Both the position numbers and the translations under genes were made by a program. From the NCBI GenBank assembly GCA_963169045.1, contig CAUJDF010000037.1:124001-188000 (forward strand): a stretch of 64,000 nucleotides of DNA, read 5' to 3'. Positions 18,482-34,882 of the stretch are shown here, piece after piece (the stretch's first letter is position 1; every line of letters begins with the position of its first letter). The stretch is from Myxococcota bacterium (lineage in GTDB: Bacteria; Myxococcota_A; Bradymonadia; UBA7976; UBA1532). The notes beneath the pieces are model-generated. The model was not told the DNA's origin. It saw nothing but the letters and a program-made list of their open reading frames with translations, and ran no database searches.

Positions 18482-20788
18482 ATGCACTCCGTGAGTCTCG
18501 ACCGCGTTTCGCTTCCCCTGTTGGCGTCCGTCGAAGACACCGTCCTGCCCGGCGAAGAGCGCGCCGTCGGCGCCCCCGCCCTCGACGCAGCGTCGATCGA
18601 CTGGCTCGCGGCGCTGCCGGTGAACACGCCGCTCGTCCTCTTGCCCGTGACCGCCGCCGCCGAGGTCCCGATGCTCGCCTCGGGCCGGTTCGCGAGCCGC
18701 GTCCTCTTCCTCGGGATGGACGCCGCGGGCGCCGCGCGGTTCGCCGGGGAGGCGCGCGTCCGCGTCGTCGCCGCGCGCGGCGCGAAGCCCCCCTACCAGG
18801 CCGAGGTCGACGCGACGCCGGCGGAGGCGCCGGCGGCCGCCGGCGAGGCGCGCGACGTCGTGCTGCGGGCCGCGCAGGCCCTCGCGACGTGCCCGCCGCC
18901 GCTCGTGCGCGCCGAGGACGTCGCCGGCGCGGCCGCGGCGCTGCTCCGCGCGATCGACGGCCCCGCCGCCGCCCGTGCCGCGCTCGCCGACGGCGACGTC
19001 CTGGCGGCGCTCGCCGAGCGGACGCGGGTGTTCGTGGCCGAGGGGGCTGGCCGCGAAGCCCTGCTCACCGTCGAGCGCGAGCTGCGCGCCCTCGCGGCCG
19101 CGCCCCAGCTGGGCCGCGCGCTGCGCCAGCGCCTGCACTCGGCCGTCGTCGAGATCGCGCGGCGCCTCGATCTGTACGACACGACGCGCGCGCGGGAGGA
19201 CGAGGTCGACGAGCTCGAGCTCCTGCGGCGGCGCCTCGATCAGGGCGGGCTGCCCCTCGCCGTGCGGTCGGTCGTCGATCGCGAGCTCCGCCTGCTGCGC
19301 CAGATGAAGGCGGACCACCACGAGTACGCCACGCACCTGCGCCTGTTGCAGCTCATCGCCCGGCTCGCGTGGCACGCCGATCCGCTGCCCCCGATCGACC
19401 TCGACCGGGTGCGCCGCACGCTCGACCGCGACCACACCGGCCTCGAGAAGGCCAAGCGCCGCCTCCTCGAGTTCCTGGCCGTGCGGGCGCTCGGCGGGGA
19501 GGGGCGCTCCACCGTCCTGTGCCTCGCCGGCGCGCCGGGCGTCGGCAAGACGTCGATCGCGCGCGCGATGGCCGAGGCGCTGGGGCGGCCGTACGTGCGC
19601 ATCGCGCTCGGCGGCGTGCACGACGAGTCGGAGCTGCGCGGTCACCGCATCACCTACACCGGCGCGCGGCCGGGCCGGCTCATCGACGGGCTGGCGCAGG
19701 TGGGCAGCCGCAGCGCCCTCGTGCTGCTCGACGAGATCGACAAGCTGGCCAACGACCGCCAGCGCAGCCCGCTCGGCGCGCTGCTCGAGATCCTCGATCC
19801 CGAACAGAATTCGACGTTCTCCGACAACTACCTGGCGGTTGCCTACGACCTGTCCGACTGCCTCTTCGTCGCGACGGCCAACGACCTCTCGTCGCTGCCG
19901 GCGTACCTCCGCGACCGGCTCGAGGTGATCGAGCTCGACGGGTACACGACGGCCGAGAAGGTGAGCATCGCGAAGAGCCACCTCTCGCCGTCGCTGGCGA
20001 AGGAGCACGGCATCCCGCCGCTCGCCGCCGACGACGCCACGCTCGCGGCGCTCGTCGAGGGCTGGACGCGCGAGGCGGGCGTGCGGCAGCTGCGTCGCGA
20101 GATGGCGGCGTTCTACCGGGAGCGGGCGGTGGAGCGGCTGCTGCCCCCGTCGCCCCCTGCGGATCCCGAGCGCCCGATCGGGGTCGCCGATCTCGCGCGC
20201 GTGCTCGGGCCGCCGCGCTTCCGGTCTCGGCGGCGCGCCGAGGCGCAGCCGCCGGGGGTCGCGACGGGCCTGTCGGTGTCGGCGTACGGCGGCGAGCTCC
20301 TCCCGCTCGAGCTGGTGCGCCTCGGGCCGGCGGAGCGCGTGCCCGGCCGGCTCGCGATGACCGGGTCGCTCGGCAACGTCATGCGCGAGTCCGCCGAGAC
20401 GGTGCGCGCGCACCTGCTGGCGCGGCGCGAGACGTACGGTCTGCCGGCCGAGGCGTTCGCCTTCGACCTGCACCTGCACGCGCCCGAGGCGGCGGTGCCC
20501 AAGGACGGCCCGTCCGCCGGCGTCGCGCTCCTCGTGGCGATGGTGTCGCTGCTGAAGAACGTCCCGGTCCGCGCCGACGTGGCGATGACGGGCGAGGTCG
20601 ATCTGTCGGGCAGCGTTCTCGCCGTCGGCGGCGTCCGTGCGAAGTGCCTGGCCGCGGAGCGCGCGGGCATGGCGCTCGTGCTGGTGCCGCGGGCGAACGA
20701 GGCCGACGTGCCGGCGGATCTCGCCATCCCCGTCGCCTTCGTCGAGCGCGCCGAGGAGGCGCTCGTCGCGCTGGAGACGACGAATTGA
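18482..20788 (+). CDS. lon: ATP-dependent Lon protease
   Basis: 768 aa, close to the canonical Lon length. The N-terminal substrate-binding region (1-300) is divergent. The AAA+ module has Walker A GAPGVGKT (350-357), Walker B LVLLDEIDK and an Asn/Arg sensor region (VATANDLSSLP). The protease dyad is Ser678 in PKDGPSAG and Lys721 in GGVRAKCLAAERAG, 43 residues apart as in E. coli Lon. It degrades damaged and regulatory proteins in the cytoplasm. The ATG at 18482 is the first start in frame with a sensible N-terminus; no strong ribosome binding site is seen. The TGA overlaps the TTG start of the next gene, so Lon appears to be co-expressed with two unknown proteins. Confidence 0.95.
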   Translation: MHSVSLDRVSLPLLASVEDTVLPGEERAVGAPALDAASIDWLAALPVNTPLVLLPVTAAAEVPMLASGRFASRVLFLGMDAAGAARFAGEARVRVVAARGAKPPYQAEVDATPAEAPAAAGEARDVVLRAAQALATCPPPLVRAEDVAGAAAALLRAIDGPAAARAALADGDVLAALAERTRVFVAEGAGREALLTVERELRALAAAPQLGRALRQRLHSAVVEIARRLDLYDTTRAREDEVDELELLRRRLDQGGLPLAVRSVVDRELRLLRQMKADHHEYATHLRLLQLIARLAWHADPLPPIDLDRVRRTLDRDHTGLEKAKRRLLEFLAVRALGGEGRSTVLCLAGAPGVGKTSIARAMAEALGRPYVRIALGGVHDESELRGHRITYTGARPGRLIDGLAQVGSRSALVLLDEIDKLANDRQRSPLGALLEILDPEQNSTFSDNYLAVAYDLSDCLFVATANDLSSLPAYLRDRLEVIELDGYTTAEKVSIAKSHLSPSLAKEHGIPPLAADDATLAALVEGWTREAGVRQLRREMAAFYRERAVERLLPPSPPADPERPIGVADLARVLGPPRFRSRRRAEAQPPGVATGLSVSAYGGELLPLELVRLGPAERVPGRLAMTGSLGNVMRESAETVRAHLLARRETYGLPAEAFAFDLHLHAPEAAVPKDGPSAGVALLVAMVSLLKNVPVRADVAMTGEVDLSGSVLAVGGVRAKCLAAERAGMALVLVPRANEADVPADLAIPVAFVERAEEALVALETTN

Positions 20789-21912
20789 GCGACGATCTGC
20801 AGACGTTGCTCGCGACCCTGGGACGGCCGCTGTCGCTCTTCCGGCGACTGAACGAGGTCCGACGCAAGCAGGACGACGAGGACGAGGACGAGGACGTCGT
20901 CGACTGGGACTTCGACGAGGAGGCCCCGCCCGAGGTCGACGCGATCGCCGCCGGGTTCCGGTTCGCGTCGGCGGCGGCGGCGGCGCTCCGCGACACCACG
21001 GCCTTCGCCTGGGTCGCGTGGGCCTGCGCCTTCGTCGACGAGGAGGAGGTCGAGCGGACGGACGGCCCGGCGCTCTCCGCGCGCCTGCTGCGCCTCGCCC
21101 TCGAGCGGCGCGCCGAGCGCGACGGCGTGGCGAGCCTGGCCGGGCCCACGGCGAAGCTGGGCGCGCATCCGCACCCGCGGGTCCGCGCTGCGCTGGCCGG
21201 GGCCCTGGCGGCGCTCGGCGAGGTGCCGGCCGCGCTCGTCCACGATCCGGACCCGGACGTGCGCCGGGCGGCCCGGCGTCTCGGCGACGCGCCGGGCACC
21301 GGGCTGCTCCCGATCGACGCGCCGCCGGCGCTCTCCGAGGCGCTCGCCGATCTCGACCCGGCGCACCTCGCGGTGATCGATCCACCGCGGCGCGATCCCG
21401 CCGCGTGGGGCCCCGTCGCGCCCGCAGCGCCGCTCCCCGACGCCCTGTCGGCGCTGCCCGACGCGCTGGCGCTCGTCGTCCTGCCGCGCCTGCTGAGCAC
21501 CGACACCGTGCCCACGTCGCGCGACCGGAGCGTCCTGCGAGCCCTCTTCGCGCGTCCGGGCGGCCTCGACGCCTTCCTGGCGCAGCTCCCGCGACTCGCG
21601 GCGGGCGACGCCTGCGAGCCGCTGTGGGAGCACCAGGCGACGGAGAGCCTGGCCCCGGTGGCCACGCCGGCGATGATCGAGCGCCTGCTGACCGCGATCG
21701 AGGCCGAGCTGCCGCCGGCCGGGACGCGCGACGACGACTTCCACGCCGGCCGCATGCTGGCGCGGATGGTCGAGGCGCTCGCGCCGACCGAGGTCGCGCC
21801 GATCTGCGCGTTGCTCGACCGGGCCGGCCCGCCCCCCGACGACTACGGCGTGCGCTGGTCGATCCTCTCGTCGCTGCGGCGCGCCGCGGCGCGCGAGGAG
21901 GCGCCCCGATGA
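20785..21912 (+). CDS. Unknown alpha-helical repeat protein, Lon-operon gene 2
   Basis: 375 aa, not recognised as a named family. The start is TTG overlapping the Lon stop (TTGA, 20785-20788), supported by GGAG about 9 nt upstream; no ATG is available until much later. After an acidic stretch (DDEDEDEDVVDWDFDEE, about residues 28-46) the sequence is nearly all helical and contains HEAT-like elements such as HPHPRVRAALAGALAALGE followed by HDPDPDVRRAARRLG. No membrane segment or signal. The stop overlaps the next start (ATGA). Alpha-solenoids usually bind proteins, so an adaptor or substrate-scaffold role for Lon is conceivable, but this rests on gene order alone. Confidence 0.8.
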   Translation: MSDDLQTLLATLGRPLSLFRRLNEVRRKQDDEDEDEDVVDWDFDEEAPPEVDAIAAGFRFASAAAAALRDTTAFAWVAWACAFVDEEEVERTDGPALSARLLRLALERRAERDGVASLAGPTAKLGAHPHPRVRAALAGALAALGEVPAALVHDPDPDVRRAARRLGDAPGTGLLPIDAPPALSEALADLDPAHLAVIDPPRRDPAAWGPVAPAAPLPDALSALPDALALVVLPRLLSTDTVPTSRDRSVLRALFARPGGLDAFLAQLPRLAAGDACEPLWEHQATESLAPVATPAMIERLLTAIEAELPPAGTRDDDFHAGRMLARMVEALAPTEVAPICALLDRAGPPPDDYGVRWSILSSLRRAAAREEAPR

Positions 21913-23693
21913 GCGCCATCGTGGACGCGGCGGCGCTCGAGCTCGCCCCCGAGGACGTGCGCCGGTTCGCTGCGGCGCTGCTGGCCGCCATCGAAGCCGA
22001 CGAGCTGCCCCTCGAGCTGTCGCCCGAGGACGCCACCGCGCTGTCGCACGCGCTCGAAGAGGGGCTGCGCTTCGCGACGGTGCTGCTGGCCGCCGATCCC
22101 GACGACGCGGCGCTCGACCTGCTGGCGGCGGCCGCCGCGCGGCGCGACGACGAGTGGGCGGAGACCGACGCGGAGTCGATCGCGCAGGCGCTGCAACACC
22201 TGGTGCCGGCGATGGATCCGGCGCAGGCCGAGGTGGTCGCCGCAGCGAAGTCGCCGACGGTGGGCGTGCGCCGGGCGCTCGCCAACGGGCTCGATCCGCG
22301 ACGCGCCGAGGGCCGCGTCCTGTTGCGGCGGCTCGCCGGCGACACGTACACGGGCGTCCGCAACGCGGCGCGCCAGCGCCTGTCGGCCGCCGGCCACGAC
22401 GTGCCGTGGTGGTCCGGGCTGTTCGACGACGATCCCTTCGCCGGCGCCGATCCCGAGGAGGCGGCGCGCGTGGCGGCGCCGCTCGCGACGCTGGCGCAGG
22501 TGCTCGTCGAGCCGCTGATCGACCTCCAGGCCCGGACGGCGACGCTCGCCTCTGCGCTCGGGGCGCTGCCCGACGCCCACGTCGTGACGCTGGTGCCGCG
22601 CATCCTGCCCGCCGAGGCCTGGACGGCCGAAGCGCTGGTGCCCGAGCTCCTGCGCCGGGCGGGCGGCGCCCGCGCCCTCGCCCGCATGCTGCCCGACCTC
22701 GACCGATCGCTGCAGTACCACGTCGGCCGCGTCGTCGAAGCGTGGTCCCCGAACGCCGCCGCGCTGCCGGCGGCGCGCCGCGACGAGATCCGGGTGGCGT
22801 TCGCCGACCGCCGGTGCGACGGGATCGAGCCGGCGGACCGCGCGCTGTACGGGCTGGCGGTCGCCTGCGTCGCGCCCGGCGAGGCGCTGTGGCCCCTTGC
22901 CGAGGCGGCGCTCGAGCGCAACGACCTCGGAGCGATCCATCGCCTCCTGTCCGGCGTCCCCGCACCCGGCTCGCGGCTGGCCGAGGCGGCGGCCGAGGCG
23001 CTCTGCGCGGGCTTTCCGGCCCCTTGGGCGCACTGCGGCCACCTCGTCGAGGCGTGGCTCTCGCGCGGACCGCTGGCCTGGCTGCGCCCGCTGGCGGAGC
23101 GGGCGACGCGCGTCGAAGGCGACCGCACGCGGCGCTGGGGCCTGGCGATGCTCACGCGCGAGGCGTTCGACCCGTCGCGCGACGGCGATCCGATCGAGCG
23201 GACGACGGCGCTCGCGCTCGATCCGCGCTTCGTCGCCGACTTCCGGGTCGACCACCGCCTGCGCGCGCGGGCGCAGCCGCTGTTCCGCGGGCGCCTGCGC
23301 CGCGGCGAGGCCACGCTCGACGAGGCGCTGGCGGCCTGCGAGCCGATCTGGACGGGCGACAAGGAGCCGGTGGATCCGCCCACGCCCGAGGATTGGGCGG
23401 CTTTGCGCCGGCTGCGCTTCGCGGCGATGCGCGAGGACGCCGCGCTCGCGCGGTCGAGGCAGTACTACCTGCAGGCCCGCGAGGAGGGCCACCCCGACGA
23501 CGAGGCGCTCCTCGAGCGGCTCGTCGCGGAGGCCGGCGACGCCGCGGCCGCCATGGACGCGATGAGTGTGCTGCTGCATGGCCCGGCGACGGTCTTCGAG
23601 GAGCGGCTGGCCACCCTCCTCGCCGAGCGATTCCCCGACGAGTCGCGGCTACAGGCCGGCCGCCGCCTCTTCCAACACCGGATGGTCCGCTGA
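21909..23693 (+). CDS. Unknown alpha-solenoid-like protein, Lon-operon gene 3
   Basis: 594 aa, not recognised. The ATG overlaps the previous stop as ATGA. The composition is helical throughout, with Ala/Leu/Glu/Arg-rich pairs of helices and HEAT-like pieces (SPTVGVRRALANGLDPRRAEGRV, then DTYTGVRNAARQRLSAAG). It shares this style with the preceding protein; the two may be distant paralogues. No signal peptide or membrane helix, hence cytoplasmic. The C-terminus ends RLFQHRMVR. It converges with the TSP3 lipoprotein gene with only 13 nt between stops, so no separate terminator is visible. Confidence 0.8.
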   Translation: MSAIVDAAALELAPEDVRRFAAALLAAIEADELPLELSPEDATALSHALEEGLRFATVLLAADPDDAALDLLAAAAARRDDEWAETDAESIAQALQHLVPAMDPAQAEVVAAAKSPTVGVRRALANGLDPRRAEGRVLLRRLAGDTYTGVRNAARQRLSAAGHDVPWWSGLFDDDPFAGADPEEAARVAAPLATLAQVLVEPLIDLQARTATLASALGALPDAHVVTLVPRILPAEAWTAEALVPELLRRAGGARALARMLPDLDRSLQYHVGRVVEAWSPNAAALPAARRDEIRVAFADRRCDGIEPADRALYGLAVACVAPGEALWPLAEAALERNDLGAIHRLLSGVPAPGSRLAEAAAEALCAGFPAPWAHCGHLVEAWLSRGPLAWLRPLAERATRVEGDRTRRWGLAMLTREAFDPSRDGDPIERTTALALDPRFVADFRVDHRLRARAQPLFRGRLRRGEATLDEALAACEPIWTGDKEPVDPPTPEDWAALRRLRFAAMREDAALARSRQYYLQAREEGHPDDEALLERLVAEAGDAAAAMDAMSVLLHGPATVFEERLATLLAERFPDESRLQAGRRLFQHRMVR

Positions 23694-23706: not shown

Positions 23707-26043
23707 TCAGGGCAGTGGCAGGCCGGCGTCCTCGAAGTGCGCGCCGGCGAGCGGGGCGAGGCGGGTGGCGTAGTCCGCGGCGAAGGGCACGGCGGTCAGG
23801 TCCGGCGACGTCCACGCGTCGTCGGTGACGCGCGGCTCCGCGGCGAGCGCGGCGCCCGGCCCGGTGATCTCGAGCGACGCGGCGGCGGCGAGGAAGCCGG
23901 TCCAGCGGCGCAGGTCGGTGCCGCAGTCCGTGCACGAGATGCCGTGCTCGCGCCGGCTCATCTGGTCGAGGGCGGTCGCCCCCAGCCACGCGAGCTCGGC
24001 GCGCGCGGCGCGGGTCTCGGCCCGCGACGTCTTCTCGAGCATCCACGCGGCGACGAAGCGCGCGTCGGGGCCGCGGCTCGTCTGCGCCAGCCAGCGGAGC
24101 ACCGGCGCGATCGCGCGCGGATCGGGATCGGTGACGCCGTCGAGCGCGCGGCGGGCGAGGGCGGGCGGCAGCGCCTGCACGCACTCGGGGCCGGCGCAGC
24201 CCATCCGGATGGGGAAGCGCGCGAGCGCCACCGGCATGGGGCACGCGTCATGGCGCCCCCCGAGCGGGTTGCAGAGGATCTGGTCGCAGGCGTCGCCGAG
24301 GCGGTCGCGGTCGGCGTCGAGCTGGTCCGGGTTGGGCACCCCCGGGCAGTTGTCGCAGGCGTCGCCGAGGCCGTCGGCATCCGTGTCCGCCTGGTCGGCG
24401 TTCGCGCGGCGCGGGCACACGTCGCAGGCGTCGCCGACGCGGTCCCCGTCGCGGTCCGCCTGGTCCGGGTTGGGGAGGAGCGGGCAGTTGTCGCGCGCGT
24501 CGACGATGCGGTCCTGGTCGTCGTCGGCGTCGCAGGCGTCGCCGCGGCCGTCGCGATCCGTGTCGGCGCCGCCCGCGTCGGGCACCGTCGGGCAGGCGTC
24601 GCAGGCGTCGCCGACGCCGTCGCCGTCGGTGTCGGTCTGGGCGGAATCGCGGACGAGCGGGCAGCGGTCGCGCGCGTCGGGGACACCGTCCCCGTCGTCG
24701 TCGGTGTCGCAGGCGTCGCCCTGGCCGTCGCGGTCGGTGTCGAGCTGGTCGCGGTTCGGCACGCCCTGGCAGTTGTCGCAGACGTCGGGGACGCCGTCGC
24801 CGGTCTCGAGGCAGCGCCGCACGCCGTCGGCGGGATCGACGAAGCAGTCGGGGTCGCGGTCCTCGGTCTCCGGGTCGTCCGGGCAGGCGTCGCAGGCGTC
24901 GCCGCGGCCGTCGCCGTCGCGGTCGAACTGGCGAGGATCGGCCACGCCGACGCAGACGTCCTCCGCCGAGCAGACGCCGTCGCGGTCGAAGTCGGTGCCG
25001 TTGTGGGGTTCGCCGTTCCGGTCGTAGTAGAGCTCGATCTGCACCCCCTCCTCGAGGACGCGCGCCGACGACACCATCAGCGGCGGCCAGTAGAGGTCGG
25101 TGCCGGCGGTGACGTCGAGCGTGGCGCCCGCCTGGTCGAGCCCTTCCTCGATCTGCTGCATCGTCACGAAATCGTTGAGATCTTCGGTCATGGACAGCGG
25201 GATGGGGAGCGGCACCCACACGACGCCTTCGATGTGCATCGCGGGCAGGTCGACGGCGACGTTGCTGAACTGAAGGCGGCTCAGCGCGACGTCGGCGCGG
25301 ACGCGGTGGTCGCAGCACGCGTCGGTGCACGCCGGGTCCAGCGGCTCGCGATCGAAGGAGACGCGGACGCGGAACGAGAGGTCGGTGCGCGCGTCCAGCG
25401 GGGCGTCGAACGCGTCGACGTCGAAGCCGCCCTCGCACCACGCGTCGACGAAGCCGTCCCAGCGCGCGATGCCGTGCGGACGCACCTCGGCGAGCCGGAC
25501 CTCGACGTCGACGGCCTGGCGGCCCGGCAGCATGCGCACCGTGACGGCGCCGATGCGCGCGGTGATCGCGTCGAGCGCGCGCAGGCGCATCTTCACCGTC
25601 GCCGAGACCTCGCAGATGTCGTCGAGCTCGTGGGGGATCAACTCGGTGCGCTCGAGGCGCAGGCCGTCGAAGCTCGCGTCGACGGCCTTCGCCAGCGCGT
25701 CGTGGATGGCCTGCGACGCTTCGGTCGCGACCTCGTCCGGCGCGACGCCGACGCCGCCGAGCAGGGCGCCCACGCCGCTCGCCTCGAGCAGGTCGACGAT
25801 GCGGTCGTCGAGCGTCGACTCGCTCACCGTCATCGGCCCGAGCGCCGGGTTGCCCGGCGCGAAGCGCACCTCGAGCGGCTGGTCCCGCCAGACGGACAGG
25901 ACGTCGTTCAGGCGCTCGGCGCCGAGCAGCTCGTTGGCCTGCCACTCGACGAGCGGCACGTAGGCGGGCGGTAGGGTCTCGGTCGCCGCGCAGCCGGTCG
26001 TCAACACGGCGGCGCACCACAGGGCTCTGGCCTTCGGGAACAT
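23707..26043 (-). CDS. Lipoprotein with thrombospondin type 3 (calcium-binding) repeats
   Basis: 778 aa. [18 protein letters not shown] carries the lipobox TTGC. Residues of about 20-355 form a unique, probably beta-rich domain with paired Cys (CTDACCDH near 247). From about 360 to 590 there are at least eight TSP3 repeats of the form DxDxDGxGDxCDxCP, which bind Ca2+ through Asp side chains. The last 180 residues are helical with CAGPEC and CTDCGTD motifs. Such proteins are typical of myxobacterial cell surfaces. The ATG follows GAGGAG with 7-nt spacing. A small hairpin ACCGGC/GCCGGT lies in the leader at 26068-26084. Transcribed alone, or downstream of the CHAT gene 110 nt away. Confidence 0.88.
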
Positions 26044-26153: not shown

Positions 26154-28844
26154 TCAGCGGAGGCCGAAGAGGCGCCAGGCGTCCCAGGCGGCGCGGCCTT
26201 CGGCGCGCATCGACCGCATGGCGAGGCGCAGGGCCTCGGCGGGGCGGCGGGCGCCGTCGGCGGCGAAGAAGCGGGTCGAGAAGGCGCGGGCGTCGTCGTC
26301 GGAGACGACGCGGTCGGCGGCGACGACGGCGGCGGCGCCCGCGGCCAGGAAGGCCTGCGGCAGGCCGACGCCGTCGTCGAGCATGGGCACGCCGGTGCGG
26401 CAGCCGCCGAGGACCACCAGCGGCCGTGCGAGGCGCAACGTGAGCACGTCGGCGAGATCGAGCGGCTCGCCGCCGGCGAGGCGCAGGTGCGCGCCCCACG
26501 GGTCGGTTTCGCGCAGCACGCCGTGGCCGGCGAAGTGGACGAGGCCCGCGCCGGGCAGCGCCTCGACGAGCGCGCGCCGCGTGGCGGCGTCGCCGAGCAG
26601 CAGGCGGGCGCCGAGCCTCGCGGCGATGTCGCGGCCGTCGGCGCGGGCGCCGGGCAGATCCGCTTCGGGATCGGCGACCACCAGCGCCGCCGCCGGGCGC
26701 TCGCCGCGCGGGCGCACCAGGAAGCCCGCGTGCGGCAGGAACGCCACGCTGGCGCGTTCGGCGAGGCGCGCGGGCAGGTCGAGCGCGTCCCGGCGGCCGC
26801 CGGCGATCACGTACACGTGGCGCACGCCCTCGGGGAGGCCGTCGAGCAGCCCGGGACCGAGCGGCGCGTGCTCGCCGCGTCCGGCGGCGACGCCTTCGAG
26901 CGCGGCCGGGCCGAGCGGCGCGTGCTCGACGCGCCCGGCGGCGACGCGGAAGAGCACATGGCCGCCGCGGTGGGGGGTGACGGCCAGCAGGGCCTCGTCG
27001 GGCGCCAGCGCCGCCGCCACCGCGTCGCCGGTCGGGGCGGGCGAGGCGCCGTCGCGATCGGCCTCGTCGAGGAAAGCGAGCGCGGCGTCGAACGCGCGCG
27101 TCCGCTCGGCGGCGAGGGCGGCGAGGGCGGCGTCGCGGGCGGCGCGGTGCTCGCCGGCGGCGGGGCCGGCGGCGGCCACGGCCTGTGCGTGGGCGTCGCG
27201 GGCCGCGCCGAAAGCGGCCAGGCGCGCGGCCCAGGTGGCGCGCTGCGCGGGCGTCGCCAGCCGCTCGACCCGGACCTCGGCCTCGAGCGCGCGCACGAGC
27301 CGCGCCCGCGCCGCGTCTCCCACCGCGAAGGCCTCGGACGCGCGCCCGAGCGACAGCAGCAGCGCCAGCGCGTCGTCGTAGAGCGGGCGCCGGTCGGCGA
27401 AGAACGGCGCCCGGCCGGACCGGAGCGGCGCGCTGCGTCCGAGCGCGTCGAGCGCGTCCATCGCCGCCCGGAACGCCGCCACCGCCCGCTCCGCGCGTCC
27501 CGCGGCCGCCGCTGCGCGCCCCTCGCCGTACCGCGCGCGCCACGCGGCCTCGCTCACCGGCCCGACCTCGGCGCGCGCCGCCTCCGCGACGGCGGCGAAG
27601 CGCGCCTCGGCCCCATCCAAGTGCCCGTCGCGCAACAGGATTTCAGCGTCGAGCAGATCGAGGAACAGCCGCACCGGCCCCGGCGACCCCCGCGGCTCGC
27701 GGGCCCGCGCCTCGTCGAGCAGCCGCCGCGCGCCGTCGCGATCGCCACGCAGCAGCTCGTTCCACGCCAGGTTGGCCAGCGCGTAGCGCTCCACCTCGCC
27801 GAGGCCGTGCGCCCGCGCCTCGGCCACCGCCTCCGCGAGCACCGCCCGCGGCGCGTCCCACGCGGGCGGGAGCGCCCCTTCGGCCATCGCGCGCAGCCGC
27901 GCGTATCCCTCGTTCAGACGGAAGCGCACGCGACGCTCCGGATCGGGGTCGACGAGCGCCGCCGGGCGCAGCGCCTCGAAGGTCGACAGCGCGTCGCCGT
28001 GCCGGCCCAGCTCGAGGTGCGCGAGCGCGAGCGCTTCGAGCGCGTTGCGCGCGCCCACGTCCTCGCCGAGCGCGCGCGACCGCCGCGCGGCGTCGCCCAG
28101 GGCCTCGAGCGCCCGGCGGAAGTCGCCGAGGTCGAACGCGAGCAGGCCGCGGTAGTAGCGCGTCCGGGCGGCGCCGACGACGTCGTCGAAGCGCTCGTCG
28201 GCGGCGGCGGCGCGGTCGAGCAGCGCGCCGGCCTCGTCGAAGCGTCGCGCCTGCAGCGCGTGGAACGCGGCGACGCGCAGGCAGCGCCCCGCCTCGGTGC
28301 TGTCCGGGGACGCGGCGGCGGCGTCGACCCACGCGTCCGGGCCACCGGCGAGGCGGGCGCGCTCGGCGGGCACCCAGCGGGCCGCGGGCGTGCCGGCGGG
28401 CACCGCGTCGAGCCGGGCGCGCGCGTCGGCCTCGCGGCCCGCCTTGCGCAGCGCCACCGCCTCGGCGAGCGCCGCCTCGGGCGTGGCCTCCCACCGCGCG
28501 GCCCAGCGCCGCTCGCGGCCGCCGGCCGTCCATCGCAGCGTCACGGGACCCACGCCCGGCGGATCGCCGTCGACGCGCCACAGCGCCCCGCCCTCGACCG
28601 CCTGCACGCGCGCGCTCGCCGGACGCGCGCCGTCGCCCGCGAGCCACACGAGGGTCCCTCCGTCCACCGCCCCGCGTACCTGGATCACCGGCCGCCGCTC
28701 CGCGTCGAACACCGGCACGACCGCCTCGCCCTCGCGGACGAGCGCGCGGTAGCCGACGAGGCGCATCGGCGGCGGCTCGGCGTCGCGGGCGCACCCCGCG
28801 AGCAGCGCCGCGGTCAAGAAGATCCGGACCGGGAAAAAACTCAT
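26154..28844 (-). CDS. TPR-CHAT domain lipoprotein (caspase-like protease)
   Basis: 896 aa. [18 protein letters not shown] gives a lipoprotein signal (lipobox LAGC). A short beta-rich segment (about 25-120) is followed by some 400 residues of TPR helices and a CHAT domain with the dyad His774 in VHFAGHG and Cys815 in VVLGGCRTG. The C-terminal part includes [18 protein letters not shown], the conserved CHAT segment after the Cys. The lipid anchor places this caspase-like enzyme in the envelope. The ATG is used because the signal begins there; an adjacent GTG at 28847 is an alternative, and neither has a clear ribosome binding site. It is divergent, by 24 bp, from the anti-sigma > subtilase > sigma operon, so the two sides probably share a control region. 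Confidence 0.88.
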
Positions 28845-28868
28845 CACGCCGGTCGAGTATGGAGTCAA

Positions 28869-29585
28869 ATGCGGCCGATGCAGGACTCCGAACTCGAGAC
28901 CACGCTCCGCCGGTTGCCCTTCGCGGCGGCCGACCCGCGCGGCTGCGACGACGGCCTGCTCGCGGCGTGGCTGGCCGGCCGTCTCGACGAGGCGGGGAGC
29001 GAGGCGGTCGAGGCGCACCTGGCCGAGTGCCGCCCGTGTCGCGACCTGGTCCTCGAGCTGCGGCGCGGCGCGCCGGGCGAGGCGGCGATGGCGCGCGCCT
29101 TGGCGCTGCTCCCTTCGCGGCGGCGCTGGCCGCTCTTCGCGGCGGCCCTGACGGCGGCCGCCGCGGTCCTGGCGCTCGTGCTGCTGCGCCCCGCGGCCGC
29201 CCCCGACTACACCATCGAAGGGCCGTTCGGCGGCGTCCAGGCCCACCGCGACGCCCCGGGGGTCGCCGCGACGTTCCTGCCGTACAGCCAGGTTCGCCTC
29301 GAGCTCGCCCCCGCGGGCGAGAGCGCGCCGCTCTCGGTCTACGTCTCGCGACCGGGCGGGGTCCTTCGCGCCGCGCCGCCGGACGTGATCGAGGCGGGGC
29401 CGGGCGGCGCGTATCGCGTGCGGTTCCGGGCGGACGCCCTGCTCGGTCCCGAGCCCGGCCCGTGGGTGATCCACCTCGTGCTCGGCGCGGCCGGCGCCGA
29501 CCGCGACGGCGAGACGGCCCCTGAGACGCCCCCCCGCGGCGCCGCCTGGCACCGCGTCGCCGTCGAGTACCAGAATGCGCAGTAG
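28869..29585 (+). CDS. Zinc-finger anti-sigma factor (zf-HC2) with periplasmic sensor domain
   Basis: 238 aa. An N-terminal zf-HC2-type domain contains HLAECRPCRDLV (His and the CxxC pair), the zinc-binding core of many anti-sigma factors. One membrane helix follows (WPLFAAALTAAAAVLALVLL, about residues 84-104), then a periplasmic beta-rich domain of about 110 residues. The architecture is that of a membrane anti-sigma that holds its sigma factor until a signal, often proteolysis, acts outside the membrane. The first ATG (28869) sits 4 nt after GGAG; ATG 28878 is a fair alternative. The stop lies inside the subtilase gene, which starts 10 nt earlier. The cognate sigma is probably the third gene of this operon. 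Confidence 0.8.
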   Translation: MRPMQDSELETTLRRLPFAAADPRGCDDGLLAAWLAGRLDEAGSEAVEAHLAECRPCRDLVLELRRGAPGEAAMARALALLPSRRRWPLFAAALTAAAAVLALVLLRPAAAPDYTIEGPFGGVQAHRDAPGVAATFLPYSQVRLELAPAGESAPLSVYVSRPGGVLRAAPPDVIEAGPGGAYRVRFRADALLGPEPGPWVIHLVLGAAGADRDGETAPETPPRGAAWHRVAVEYQNAQ

Positions 29586-31911
29586 TTTCAATGTCTTGGC
29601 GGTGATGCTGGCCGCATGCCAGCCGCTCGGAGGCGGGCCCTCGTCGCCCGGCCAGCCCGCGTTGCCGCCCGTCGTCGAGGCCGATCTGCGGCCCTTCCTG
29701 CCCGCCGCGCTCACCGGCGCCGACCTGCGCTACTTCGAGCTGCGCTTCCGCATCCGCCGCGCGCCGGCGCCGGGCGAGGCGCAACCGCTCGTCGGCGCGG
29801 CGGGGCCGCCGCTGGCCGGCGTCTGCCGCGACGACCGCCTCTTCGTGCACTTCGCCGCCGCCGAGTGGCCCGTACCCCCGCGCCCCGCCGAGACACTCGA
29901 AGCGCTGCTCGCCGCCGTCGAGGCCCGCCTCGAGCGCGCGCTCCGCCCCGGCTGGTTCGCCGAGGACGCGGCGGGGCGCGTGTCGCTGCGCCCCGAGGCC
30001 CGCTGCGTCGCCGTCCAGGCCCTGCGCGACGCCGTCGCCGCCGAGGTGGGCGGCGATCCGGCCCGCGTGCGCGTCGGCCGCGTCTGTACCTTCCAGGCGG
30101 CCCAGGCCGAGTGCGGCCCGCCGCCGCCGGTCATGGACACCGACGCGGCCTACGCGTGGCACCTCGACCAGCTCGACCCCCAGCGCGCCACGCCCCCCGC
30201 CGGACGCGCCCGCATCGCGCTCATCGACGGCGGCTTCGACGCGGCGGCCTTCTCCGGCGAAGAGCACCCCGTCGCGCTGCCCTTCGGCGACCGCCTCGAC
30301 GACCAGCCGCGCATCGCCCACGGCGATCTCATGGCCGGCCTCATTCGCCAGATCGCGCCGGCCAACACCGCGGAACTACACGGCTTTCGTGTCCTCGACG
30401 GGCAGGGGCGCGGCACGACGCACGACCTGGCGGCGGCCATCGCGCAGGCGCTCGTCGACCTGCCCGACGACCCGCTCGTCGTCAACCTCAGCCTCGGCTG
30501 GACGCCCGAGCTGGGCCAGGACCGCGCGCTCACCGGGCCCGCCGAGGACGGCGGCGCGTGCGCCACCGTGGAGAACGGCGACGGCGAGGCGGTGCGCCAC
30601 GTGCTCGACGCCGCCTGGCGCCGCGATCGCCAGGGCGCGCCGACGGCGGTCTTCGCGGCGACGGGCAACCGCGCCGGGCGCCCGGACCACACGCGCGCCG
30701 TGCTGCAGGCGGCGCTCGGCGACGCGGACGACTACGACGACGCGTGCTGGGGCGATCTCGCGCCGGGCGACGCGTGGTTCTACCCCGCGGAGTACGGCTT
30801 CACGCCCACGTGTGGCGGTGGCGACGCGCGCCACACGGTCGACGCGATCGGCGCCAGCGACGCCTCCGGGCGGCGCTCGTCGATCGACGGCACGACGCTC
30901 CGGCCGCCGGCGCTCGTCGCCCCCGGCGAGCACGTCTTCGCACCCGGACCGGTCGCGGTCACCGGGACGAGCGCGGCCACGGCCCTCACGAGCGCGATCG
31001 CCGCCGTCGTGCAGGCGATCCGCGCCGACGCGCCGCTGTCGCGCGACGTCCTGCTGCACGTGCTCTACGCCACCGGCGTGCCACTGCCCGGCGAGGAGCG
31101 CGGCCGCGTGATGCCCCACGAGGAGGGCACGACGGGCCTGTTGGCGCGCGAGCGCGGCCTGCTCGACGGCCCCGGGGCGAGCCGCGATCGACCGGCGACG
31201 GCCGTGCTCTCGCGGCGCCTCTCGCTGTGCCGCGCGCGGGCGGCGCTGACGTGCGCGCCCGGACCGGGCCGTTGCGCCGGCGGCCTCCCCCAGTGCGTCG
31301 CCGCGAACCTCACCGCGCCCTCCGGCTGGATCGATCCCGCCATCCTCGACGCCTGCGGCGCCTGCATCACCGCGTGCCTCGCGGCCGACGACTGCGTCGA
31401 GACGCCGGCGCCCCCGGCCTGGTCGTCGGCGTACGCCGACCACCTCGCCTGCGCCGCGGACGTGCGCACGACCGCCGCAGCCGCGACCGAGGCGTGCGAC
31501 CTGTCCGCGACGACGTCCTGCGCGTTCGAGGACGACGCCGCGTCCGAAGCCTCCGTCCTCGGCTGGGTGCTGCCCCAGCCCGGCCTCCCCGGCTGCGAAG
31601 AGTGCAGCATCGTCGACGCCGGCGCGGCCGGCCTGAGCGTCCTGCTGAAGCTCAACCCCAAGCTGCCGTCGACCACGCGCTTCTCGAAGGCGTTCCTGCT
31701 CGTCACCCAGGACGCGAAGGTCTACGCCGTCGATCTGAAGCCGACGGCGGCCTGGCTGCCGGGCCGCTCGGTCGCGGTGACGGGCATCCGCCTGCCCGTC
31801 ACGCCCGACTGGAGCCGCGCCAAGGCGACGCTCTACTCGGTCTACCGGACGAGCGCGTCGGCGCCGCTCGTCTCCGACTACTCCCCCCTGCTGGTGACGA
31901 AGGCGCTGTGA
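29575..31911 (+). CDS. S8 subtilisin-like protease lipoprotein
   Basis: 778 aa. MRSSFNVLAVMLAAC is a lipoprotein signal (Cys15). The catalytic set is Asp218 in IALIDGGFD, His249 in IAHGDLMAG, Asn365 in AATGNRAG and Ser466 in VTGTSAAT. Residues of about 20-205 may act as a propeptide region. After the protease domain (to about 520) comes a Cys-rich stretch and a C-terminal beta-like domain. It is encoded between an anti-sigma and a sigma factor and overlaps both (11 nt and GTGA), so it is expressed with them in fixed proportion. A role in cleaving the periplasmic part of the anti-sigma or the neighbouring CHAT lipoprotein is attractive but inferred. Confidence 0.9.
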   Translation: MRSSFNVLAVMLAACQPLGGGPSSPGQPALPPVVEADLRPFLPAALTGADLRYFELRFRIRRAPAPGEAQPLVGAAGPPLAGVCRDDRLFVHFAAAEWPVPPRPAETLEALLAAVEARLERALRPGWFAEDAAGRVSLRPEARCVAVQALRDAVAAEVGGDPARVRVGRVCTFQAAQAECGPPPPVMDTDAAYAWHLDQLDPQRATPPAGRARIALIDGGFDAAAFSGEEHPVALPFGDRLDDQPRIAHGDLMAGLIRQIAPANTAELHGFRVLDGQGRGTTHDLAAAIAQALVDLPDDPLVVNLSLGWTPELGQDRALTGPAEDGGACATVENGDGEAVRHVLDAAWRRDRQGAPTAVFAATGNRAGRPDHTRAVLQAALGDADDYDDACWGDLAPGDAWFYPAEYGFTPTCGGGDARHTVDAIGASDASGRRSSIDGTTLRPPALVAPGEHVFAPGPVAVTGTSAATALTSAIAAVVQAIRADAPLSRDVLLHVLYATGVPLPGEERGRVMPHEEGTTGLLARERGLLDGPGASRDRPATAVLSRRLSLCRARAALTCAPGPGRCAGGLPQCVAANLTAPSGWIDPAILDACGACITACLAADDCVETPAPPAWSSAYADHLACAADVRTTAAAATEACDLSATTSCAFEDDAASEASVLGWVLPQPGLPGCEECSIVDAGAAGLSVLLKLNPKLPSTTRFSKAFLLVTQDAKVYAVDLKPTAAWLPGRSVAVTGIRLPVTPDWSRAKATLYSVYRTSASAPLVSDYSPLLVTKAL

Positions 31912-32567
31912 TCGTCCTGCTCGTCCTGGCGGCGTTCGCCGTCGTCGATCCGGCGGCGGCGCGGGAGGCGGCGACGCTCGTGGCGCTGGCGCTGTCGGGC
32001 CGCGGCGCCGCCGCGCGCGTCCTGACGCGGCGTCTCTTGCCGGTGATCCGCGGCCGCGTGGCCGCGCACTTCGCGCGCCGCGCCGGCCAGCGCATCGGCG
32101 CCCACGACGCCGACGACATGGTCCAGGACATCTGGGCGACGCTCCTGCAGGACGGCGGCCGGCTGCTGCGCGCCTACGACCCCACGCGCGGCATGACCCT
32201 CGAGGGCTACGTGGGGCTGCTGTGTCGCCGCGAGCTCTGGCGACGCGGCGAGCAGGCGGCACGCCTCAAGCGCGGCGGCGGACAAGTATTCGAAACGCTT
32301 GATGATCCGCTCCCGGACGGCGGCGCGCTGCCCGAAGAGGAGGCGGTGGGCCGCGACCTGCTCGCCGGCCTGCTGGCGCACCTGCGCGCGACGCTCCCGG
32401 TGCGTGGCCGCGCCGTGCTCGCCTACGTCTACGAGGACGCCCGCGACCCGCAGGAGGCGGCGGAGGCGCTCGGCGTCAACCTCCAGGTCGTCTACAACTG
32501 GCAGCACCGCATCCGCCAGGAGAGCCGCGCCTTCCTCACCGCGAACGGCGTCGCCGTCGCCGACTGA
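31908..32567 (+). CDS. Sigma-70 family (ECF-like) RNA polymerase sigma factor
   Basis: 219 aa. Region 2 is visible as DADDMVQDIWATLLQDGGRLL and RAYDPTRGMTLEGYVGLLCRRELWRR, region 4 as the helix-turn-helix DPQEAAEALGVNLQVVYNWQHRIRQ. Size and two-domain layout fit ECF-type sigma factors. The GTG at 31908 overlaps the subtilase TGA (GTGA) with GAAGG upstream, but it yields a hydrophobic first 12 residues unusual for a sigma factor. GTG 31980, preceded by GGGAGG, would remove them. Probably controlled by the anti-sigma at 28869 in the same operon. The transcript then meets the inverted repeat at 32567-32643. Confidence 0.83.
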   Translation: MIVLLVLAAFAVVDPAAAREAATLVALALSGRGAAARVLTRRLLPVIRGRVAAHFARRAGQRIGAHDADDMVQDIWATLLQDGGRLLRAYDPTRGMTLEGYVGLLCRRELWRRGEQAARLKRGGGQVFETLDDPLPDGGALPEEEAVGRDLLAGLLAHLRATLPVRGRAVLAYVYEDARDPQEAAEALGVNLQVVYNWQHRIRQESRAFLTANGVAVAD

Positions 32568-32722: not shown

Positions 32723-34882
32723 ATGAGAGGCAAGGCGTGTCTTCTGTGGATCCTGGCCTGGGCGGGGGCGGCGCACGCCGCCGACAGCGTGGCCGCCGAC
32801 GCGTGGACGTGCCAGGCGGGCGACGCCTGGGGCATCGGCGCGACGGAGACCGAGGCCGCCGCCGACGCCCAGCGCCGGTGCGCCGGCGAGAACGCGTGCG
32901 GGCGCGCGTTCGGCTGCACGCCGTTCGGCTGCCGGCGGACCGTCGCGTGCCGGGCGTGGGCCTGCGCGGACCAGTTCGGGCAGACGTTCGTCGCCTCGAG
33001 CGCCGTCGAGGCGCGCGACGATGCCCGCCAGGCTTGTGCGGTGATGCAGGCCCAGCTGGGGTTCGCGCTGTGCACGCAGGTGCTGAACTGCCTGTGGGCG
33101 ACGATCGAGTGCGCGTGCGCCGATCCGTGCGGCGCGCAGACCTGGTACCGCGACTCGGACGGCGACGGCTGGGGCGCCGCGCCGGTCACCGGAGACGCGT
33201 GCTCGCCGCCCGGCCCGGGCGTCTGGGTGCGGCGCGGCAGCGACTGCGACGACGGCGATCCCGCGGTGAACCCGGACGTGACCGTCGACTGGTGGCGCGA
33301 CGAGGACGGCGACGGCTTCGGCGCCGGCGACGTCCTCACGCTCGATGTCTGCAACCCGCCGCAGGTGTCCGGCTGGGTCCGCAACGACGACGACTGCGAC
33401 GACGCCCGCACCGACCACCACCCCGGCGCGGTCCTCACCTTCTACCGCGACGCCGACGGCGACGGGTTCGGCGATCCGGCGATGTCGGCGGCGCTTTACG
33501 CCTGCGACCGCGCCGGCTGGGTGGGGAACGCGCGCGACTGCGACGACGGCGACGCCACGCTCAACCCGCGCACGCTCTGGTACCCGGACGGCGACGGCGA
33601 CGGCGAGGGCGCCCGGCTGTCGGACGCGACGCGGCAGTGCGCGCCGCCCGCGGCGACCGGCTGGGCCCGCGCGGCGACTGACTGCAACGACCAGAACCGC
33701 GCCATCAACAGCCGCTCCACCTGGTACCGCGACGCGGACGGCGACGGCGACGGCGATCCCGGGGCGACGGTGGTCGGCTGTGAGCCGCCCGCCGGCTACG
33801 TGTGGGAGGGCGCCGACTGCGACGACACGGACCCGGCGCTGCACGGCGACACCGCCTGGTACGTCGACGAGGACGGGGATGGCTTCGGCGGCGCGTACCT
33901 GGGCCGGGCCTGCGCGCCCATCGGCGACTTCTTCTGGGGGCTCTGTGCTGGGCCGGCGACGCCCGTGTTCGTGGCGTGCCCCGCCGCCGCCTTCCTCTAC
34001 GACGAGTGCGTCACGCTCCCGCGGTCGACGTCCACCGCGCGGACGACCCTCTGCCCGCACCCCGCGGAGCGGGTCACGCGCGTCCCCGGCGACGCGGACG
34101 ACCACGACGCGGCCGTGAACCTCGACCGCACACCGCCGAGCGACGCGGACGGCGACGGCGCGTTCTCGCTGCCCGGCGCCCGATTCGCCTTGCCTTTCAC
34201 GATGTTCCGCAAGGTCGCCGGCCGCCTGCTCCCCGTCGCGGCGGACTGCGACGACCGCACGCGCGCGGTGGGCGCCGGCACCCGCGCCTGGCTCGACCTG
34301 GACCGCGACGGCCTCGGCGATCCGCGCCGGCCCGTCGTCCGCTGCGCCCACGATCGGCTGCCGGTCGCCGCCGCGCCGGACGACGCCGACGACGGGCGCG
34401 CCGACGTCTCGGCCGCGGCGTCGCTCCGGGCCGCGCCGGGCCGCGCCTTCCACGCCGGCGACCGCCTCTGCGCGCTCGGCGACGACGGCGGCGCCCACTG
34501 CCTCGCGCCCGCCCTCGCGCTCTACGTCGCCGACCGCGCGCTCCCGCTGCCCGCGGTCTCCCTCGACGGGCTGCGCCTGTCCGACGACCCGCGGGCCCGC
34601 GCCCGACTGGCCCTGAGCGCGCTCGTCGAGCGCCACGCCGGCGAGGCGCTCGGCCTCGTCCTCGACGTCGAAGGCCAGCGCTTCCTGGCGGCCTGGCCCG
34701 GCGTGCTCTACCGCGACCTGCCGGCGGACTGCGTCACCGCCCGGGGCGGGGTCGTCGTCGCGAACGCCACGCGGGCGCCGCTGCGCGCGATCTCCATGGA
34801 CCGCGCCGCCTTCGGCGAGCTCCGCGCGGCCCTCGCGCGCACCGGCGCCGCCTGCAGCCTGCCGCGGCGCCCGACGCGTTGA
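32723..34882 (+). CDS. Secreted MopE-type metal-binding repeat protein
   Basis: 719 aa. A signal peptide (MRGKACLLWILAWAGAAHA) precedes a Cys-rich N-terminal domain (about 20-135) and then six or seven repeats of the MopE kind: WYRDSDGDGWG ... DCDDGDPAVNP, each joining an Asp-rich loop to a DCDD motif. This repeat is known from the surface/secreted copper-binding MopE family and from many deltaproteobacterial secreted proteins. The last 250 residues (from about 460) contain a less regular Asp-rich stretch and a C-terminal domain without assignment. A purine-rich GAGGAGGAG lies before the ATG at 32723, with TGACG between. Downstream gene converges 3 nt away. Confidence 0.85.
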   Translation: MRGKACLLWILAWAGAAHAADSVAADAWTCQAGDAWGIGATETEAAADAQRRCAGENACGRAFGCTPFGCRRTVACRAWACADQFGQTFVASSAVEARDDARQACAVMQAQLGFALCTQVLNCLWATIECACADPCGAQTWYRDSDGDGWGAAPVTGDACSPPGPGVWVRRGSDCDDGDPAVNPDVTVDWWRDEDGDGFGAGDVLTLDVCNPPQVSGWVRNDDDCDDARTDHHPGAVLTFYRDADGDGFGDPAMSAALYACDRAGWVGNARDCDDGDATLNPRTLWYPDGDGDGEGARLSDATRQCAPPAATGWARAATDCNDQNRAINSRSTWYRDADGDGDGDPGATVVGCEPPAGYVWEGADCDDTDPALHGDTAWYVDEDGDGFGGAYLGRACAPIGDFFWGLCAGPATPVFVACPAAAFLYDECVTLPRSTSTARTTLCPHPAERVTRVPGDADDHDAAVNLDRTPPSDADGDGAFSLPGARFALPFTMFRKVAGRLLPVAADCDDRTRAVGAGTRAWLDLDRDGLGDPRRPVVRCAHDRLPVAAAPDDADDGRADVSAAASLRAAPGRAFHAGDRLCALGDDGGAHCLAPALALYVADRALPLPAVSLDGLRLSDDPRARARLALSALVERHAGEALGLVLDVEGQRFLAAWPGVLYRDLPADCVTARGGVVVANATRAPLRAISMDRAAFGELRAALARTGAACSLPRRPTR

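Follow-up and report, generated by a model that had tools for sequence, protein, structure and literature searches.

The four adjoining genes at positions 26,154 to 32,567 of the analysed stretch of 64,000 nucleotides (hereafter the window) raise a key question: do two exported proteases govern the release of the sigma factor encoded beside them, or do they share the locus for another reason? The initial annotation had described an anti-sigma factor, a subtilase and a sigma factor, divergent from a CHAT lipoprotein; translations, Pfam and NCBIfam confirmed these genes with their positions, overlaps and catalytic residues. According to the translations, the CHAT gene lies on the minus strand and the anti-sigma, subtilase and sigma genes follow one another on the plus strand; the translated frames overlap by exactly 11 nt (anti-sigma/subtilase) and 4 nt (subtilase/sigma). 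In the sequence itself, only 24 nt (28845..28868, no strand assigned) separate the divergent start codons of the CHAT and anti-sigma genes; therefore, the promoters of these two genes, if any, are located partly within coding regions. None of the four cassette proteins matched in PADLOC, and a known defence system was rejected on this basis. Directly 3' of the CHAT gene and on the same strand is a gene for a thrombospondin type 3 repeat lipoprotein (window 23707-26043, minus strand), and directly 3' of the sigma gene is one for a Cys-rich exported protein without a Pfam family (window 32723-34882, plus strand). The region 18521-23693 of the window (plus strand) harbors an AAA+/Lon-C protease gene and, behind it, a pair of genes that overlap each other; HEAT repeats occur in the first of the pair, and the only PADLOC matches there are weak.

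The membrane anti-sigma factor (28869..29585, plus strand, 238 aa; Pfam zf-HC2, 1.7e-7, above the cut-off) carries the HxxxCxxC motif (HLAECRPC) in its N-terminal domain, followed by a single TM helix at residues 84-105 with RRR just before it. This combination of an N-terminal HxxxCxxC domain and one TM helix corresponds to the ZAS anti-sigma factors of ECF sigma factors. The ectodomain, residues 114-234, is confidently modelled (AF2, pLDDT 83) as an extracytoplasmic Ig-like beta-sandwich, and its PDB matches were weak Ig-fold matches only. Among 48 anti-sigma homologues, the motif is present in 11 and missing in 37; thus, the zf-HC2 assignment made initially holds in the window, but zinc binding does not hold as a general feature. 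A domain common to the anti-sigma ectodomain and the N-terminal domain of the CHAT protein was suspected by eye but found no support (hhalign probability 0.5%).

The exported TPR-CHAT protein (26154..28844, minus strand, 896 aa; lipobox LLAGC; Pfam CHAT, 4.3e-27, above the cut-off) consists of an N-terminal beta domain (~27-114), a TPR solenoid (~124-595) and the CHAT domain (~616-894) with the dyad His774/Cys815. When its AF2 model (pLDDT 85, pTM 0.82) was compared with known structures in Foldseek, DdvA was the best match (E 6e-15), Csx29 the next (2e-12) and separase followed; a profile search agreed (DdvA 5.6e-11, Csx29-type 3e-4). The CHAT fold with its His/Cys dyad is that of clan CD, and proteolytic activity is predicted. 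The His is kept in 49 and the Cys in 50 of 57 CHAT matches, the remainder being truncated or false matches. A simple export rule assigned a lipobox to 13 homologues and another signal or TM to 17, leaving 19 undecided; a clear predicted lipoprotein status is not universal.

The subtilase (29575..31911, plus strand, 778 aa; Pfam Peptidase_S8, 1.5e-11, above the cut-off) is likewise a lipoprotein (lipobox MLAAC), with the S8 triad Asp218/His249/Ser466, the oxyanion Asn365 and, in the family alignment, a conserved, Cys-containing C-terminal domain. All four residues are retained in 24 of 25 homologues. The exception (L062:7843-10083, minus strand, genome G004) is an orphan lipoprotein without cassette neighbours in which all triad positions are changed.

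The sigma gene (31908..32567, plus strand, GTG start, 219 aa; TIGR02937, 1.7e-7) does not reach the Pfam gathering cut-offs when searched singly. The profile of its family matched solved ECF sigma factors in the PDB at 5.9e-15, and TIGR02937 together with this comparison identifies sigma regions 2 and 4. Judged from its sequence, the protein is a divergent ECF sigma factor. It begins with an uncharged hydrophobic leader (MIVLLVLAAFAVV; window 31908-31946, plus strand; family alignment), and many sigma factors of its clade start with 10-20 uncharged hydrophobic residues. In a tree built after removing 12 leader residues, two deep clades differ in the frequency of the leader (18 of 27 members versus 2 of 40), the split between them being weakly supported (68/85). 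Several sigma start codons overlap the upstream gene. The leader may be a membrane tether, although some leaders appear too short to span a membrane; pro-sigmaK is comparable in idea. Leaders were found both with and without S8, so a tie to the presence of the subtilase was rejected.

Are the four genes merely chance neighbours? The window sigma factor and CHAT protein, each searched separately as a single sequence in the same 18 genomes, gave 46 sigma and 42 CHAT places, and 21 of the 46 sigma places lay within 10 kb of a CHAT place, where 0.67 were expected. Family profiles, used in one genome-wide search per gene in 13 genomes of the same family, gave 45 sigma, 45 anti-sigma, 56 CHAT and 19 subtilase places. 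Sigma places were within 10 kb of an anti-sigma place in 38 of 45 cases, of a CHAT place in 30 and of a subtilase place in 13, and the subtilase was near CHAT in 14 of 19 cases; the expectation was below one for each. All four genes occurred together at 13 loci in four genomes (again with fewer than one expected), and hand annotation yielded 24 four-gene cassettes, some from other Myxococcota families. Since members located near sigma genes went into the profiles, the search with single sequences gives the cleaner test, and all counts are lower bounds because of contig ends. These genome-wide counts rule out chance adjacency. Recurrence of the four genes, by which the initial annotation had proposed to be judged, was thus found at no fewer than 13 loci.

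The association extends beyond the family. Among the twenty best sigma matches outside it, picked by sigma score alone, 19 were recognised as sigma genes; 13 of these 19 had a CHAT gene within 10 kb, and six of them a subtilase too. These loci belong to families f18, f34, f44, f42 and f14 and to other families of the phylum. A single genome can contain as many as 13 copies each of the sigma and CHAT genes.

Cassette membership is kept among loci, with gene order and orientation freely shuffled. With the anti-sigma, subtilase and sigma genes abbreviated ASF, S8 and SIG, the window has a divergent CHAT / ASF-S8-SIG arrangement, its paralog on contig C103 has CHAT-ASF-S8-SIG, and other loci have SIG-ASF-S8-CHAT, CHAT-S8-SIG-ASF or S8-SIG-ASF facing CHAT; 4-nt gene overlaps are frequent. 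The subtilase is found at more than half of the loci with CHAT, anti-sigma and sigma genes and is absent from many. Caspases (Peptidase_C14) apparently stand in for it at three loci, as a lipoprotein in the subtilase slot (L063:7009-8814, plus strand), as a protein ahead of CHAT (L079:5902-7839, plus strand) and as a protein a few kb from the CHAT, anti-sigma and sigma genes (L151:15116-16576, plus strand). At L061, a trypsin adjoins the sigma factor. Because the subtilase is missing at many loci and replaced at a few, the core consists of the sigma factor, the membrane anti-sigma factor and the exported TPR-CHAT protein, and the subtilase is the commonest second exported protease and not an obligatory one. 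Therefore, the four-gene set of the initial annotation does recur, but not with the subtilase as a fixed member.

Another important question is whether the genes have evolved together. Distance matrices over the 24 four-gene cassettes were correlated for all six gene pairs, and in each case the observed value was reached in 0 of 2000 permutations. The correlation was highest for CHAT-S8 (r = 0.89), followed by ASF-CHAT (0.77), ASF-S8 (0.66), SIG-ASF (0.63), SIG-S8 (0.58) and SIG-CHAT (0.53); CHAT-S8 kept the top rank with column numbers equalised (0.78) and also on distant pairs (0.73). These values fit joint inheritance of the cassette, the two proteases being most closely coupled; they do not in themselves prove contact, and whole-cassette duplication alone also yields correlated distances. 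The suggestion that the two proteases may work together is thereby supported indirectly. The pairing of the anti-sigma factor with this sigma family, also part of the initial annotation, is supported by their proximity and correlated distances, from which binding and inhibition are predicted.

The tight CHAT-S8 correlation could also be expected if CHAT and S8 activated each other as a proteolytic module for defence or cell death, with only a secondary role for transcription control, and caspase-like and S8 proteases are known from bacterial conflict systems (PMC7159879). We consider this very improbable, given that PADLOC recognised none of the four proteins, that the proteases are directed to the envelope and not to the cytoplasm, and that the sigma pair is frequently present.

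The sigma/anti-sigma pair is co-inherited with both exported proteases in shuffled orders in many genomes, which suggests that the proteases govern the switching on of the sigma factor. With roughly even confidence, we propose an envelope protease-gated ECF sigma switch, in which proteolysis outside would free the sigma factor inside. The one-TM anti-sigma factor would hold the sigma factor at the inner membrane, and the exported TPR-CHAT lipoprotein would sense or relay an envelope signal. One of the two proteases, CHAT or the subtilase lipoprotein, probably activates or regulates the other, and both would lead to cutting of the extracytoplasmic beta-sandwich of the anti-sigma factor on the outer side of the inner membrane. 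The last step of the release would fall to a housekeeping M50 site-2 protease; several M50 peptidases (site-2 protease family) of the window genome score over the family cut-off. In the window clade, the hydrophobic leader of the sigma factor may give a second membrane tether. We infer that cleavage occurs, and likewise which protease cuts what, the order of action, the signal and the target genes.

The main rival reverses the direction of control: the sigma pair would be the controller and, in response to contact or envelope stress, would induce the exported proteases as its output, acting against foreign or damaged proteins or the cell itself, with the anti-sigma factor not among their targets. 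Such an output would agree with the export of both proteases, the unfixed gene order and the exported proteins adjoining the cassettes, which differ from locus to locus, and autoregulation of adjacent genes is common among ECF sigma factors. However, the upstream regions of the cassettes yielded no common promoter motif (the top pair, present in 8 of 31 of these regions versus 6-7 in shuffles, was dismissed as GC-rich background), TPR-CHAT sits on the anti-sigma chain in DdvA, and one genome joins S8 to the sigma factor via a TM segment. In the latter case (L134:7789-11955, minus strand, genome G230 of another family), a single open frame encodes Cys-rich repeats, S8 with an intact triad, an Asp/Thr-rich linker, the TM segment PPNVLLFFLFALLALLRKVGAR and the sigma factor, and overlaps the anti-sigma gene by 4 nt. 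There is no CHAT gene within the stretch read; this is one case in a fragmented metagenome-type assembly and may be an assembly error deleting a stop. The four other genomes of the same order (five in all) contained no further S8-TM-sigma fusion, and no ASF-CHAT fusion was present among the loci read. The DdvA chain and the S8-TM-sigma fusion make proteases acting upstream of the sigma factor the easier reading, and we regard proteases as mere output as possible but rather unlikely.

A more elaborate form of the protease-gated switch would have two locks. The sigma factor would carry its own membrane-inserting N-terminal leader, or in one lineage form part of an entire subtilase-TM-sigma chain. 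Two exported proteases of different clans, dedicated to the purpose, would free both the anti-sigma factor and the sigma tether, the whole being duplicated many times within genomes with different input modules. This version seems to us doubtful and is put forward tentatively.

It is also conceivable that CHAT does not cut at all and instead binds the anti-sigma ectodomain as a sensor or scaffold, sequestering or stabilising it, with S8 (or C14) as the only cutting enzyme. The many core loci with CHAT, anti-sigma and sigma genes, the large TPR solenoid, which suits binding, and the frequent second protease of a different clan all agree with such a role; nevertheless, nearly all full-length CHAT homologues keep the His and Cys, residues superfluous in a pure scaffold, and we judge such a role improbable. 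For the proposed switch, each step is open to genetic dissection because its parts are encoded separately, look active and exist in many copies.

How does this arrangement compare with known systems? The switch idea of the initial annotation has precedents in DdvA, ECF54 and Craspase. DdvS/DdvA of Myxococcus xanthus (PDB 8rot, 8rw5, 8rlz) likewise combines a myxobacterial ECF sigma factor with a transmembrane anti-sigma factor and TPR-CHAT. DdvA is the genetically established anti-sigma factor of DdvS, its inactivating signal being unknown (PMC4374960); the window CHAT protein matches it best in both structure and profile comparisons, and DdvA, as aligned, has the CHAT His and Cys. Whereas DdvA holds the anti-sigma factor and TPR-CHAT in one chain, the window has separate divergent genes, with CHAT as an exported lipoprotein and a subtilase added; because DdvA joins the two, the window CHAT protein and anti-sigma factor are expected to act together. 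For ECF54, a review reports a subtilase and CHAT conserved in the sigma gene context and proposes proteolytic control without an anti-sigma factor (PMC8999054). The likeness to the window is one of genetic context, and here, in contrast, a membrane anti-sigma factor is the most constant partner.

In type III-E Craspase, the TPR-CHAT protein Csx29 cuts Csx30, an inhibitor of CASP-sigma (PMC10028731). As in the window, a TPR-CHAT protease gene accompanies an inhibitor of an ECF-like sigma factor, and the folds are similar (E 2e-12); however, Craspase is cytoplasmic and RNA-guided, whereas the window CHAT protein is exported and the inhibitor is a transmembrane anti-sigma factor. Regarding a gRAMP/Cas7-11 effector beside the cassette, the PADLOC matches of the window neighbours included no CRISPR protein. 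Elsewhere in the same genome (G000), three RAMP-family proteins in separate open frames on contig C72 (15659-22225), which is not the window contig, probably represent a type III CRISPR locus. RseA/DegS/RseP shares with the window a one-TM anti-sigma factor with a cytoplasmic sigma-binding and an extracytoplasmic domain, but employs the PDZ protease DegS, while the cassette itself encodes CHAT and S8 and the sensor domain is Ig-like.

A literature search with little coverage of subscription journals retrieved no description of the four-gene arrangement. Relative to DdvS/DdvA, ECF54 and Csx29-Csx30-CASP-sigma, what is new is the split, multi-copy, two-protease form, together with the hydrophobic leader that many of the sigma factors carry. 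If the proposed switch is real, it would parallel, in the envelope, the TPR-CHAT/sigma-inhibitor pathway linked to CRISPR and would suggest a wider theme in which TPR-CHAT proteases target sigma inhibitors.
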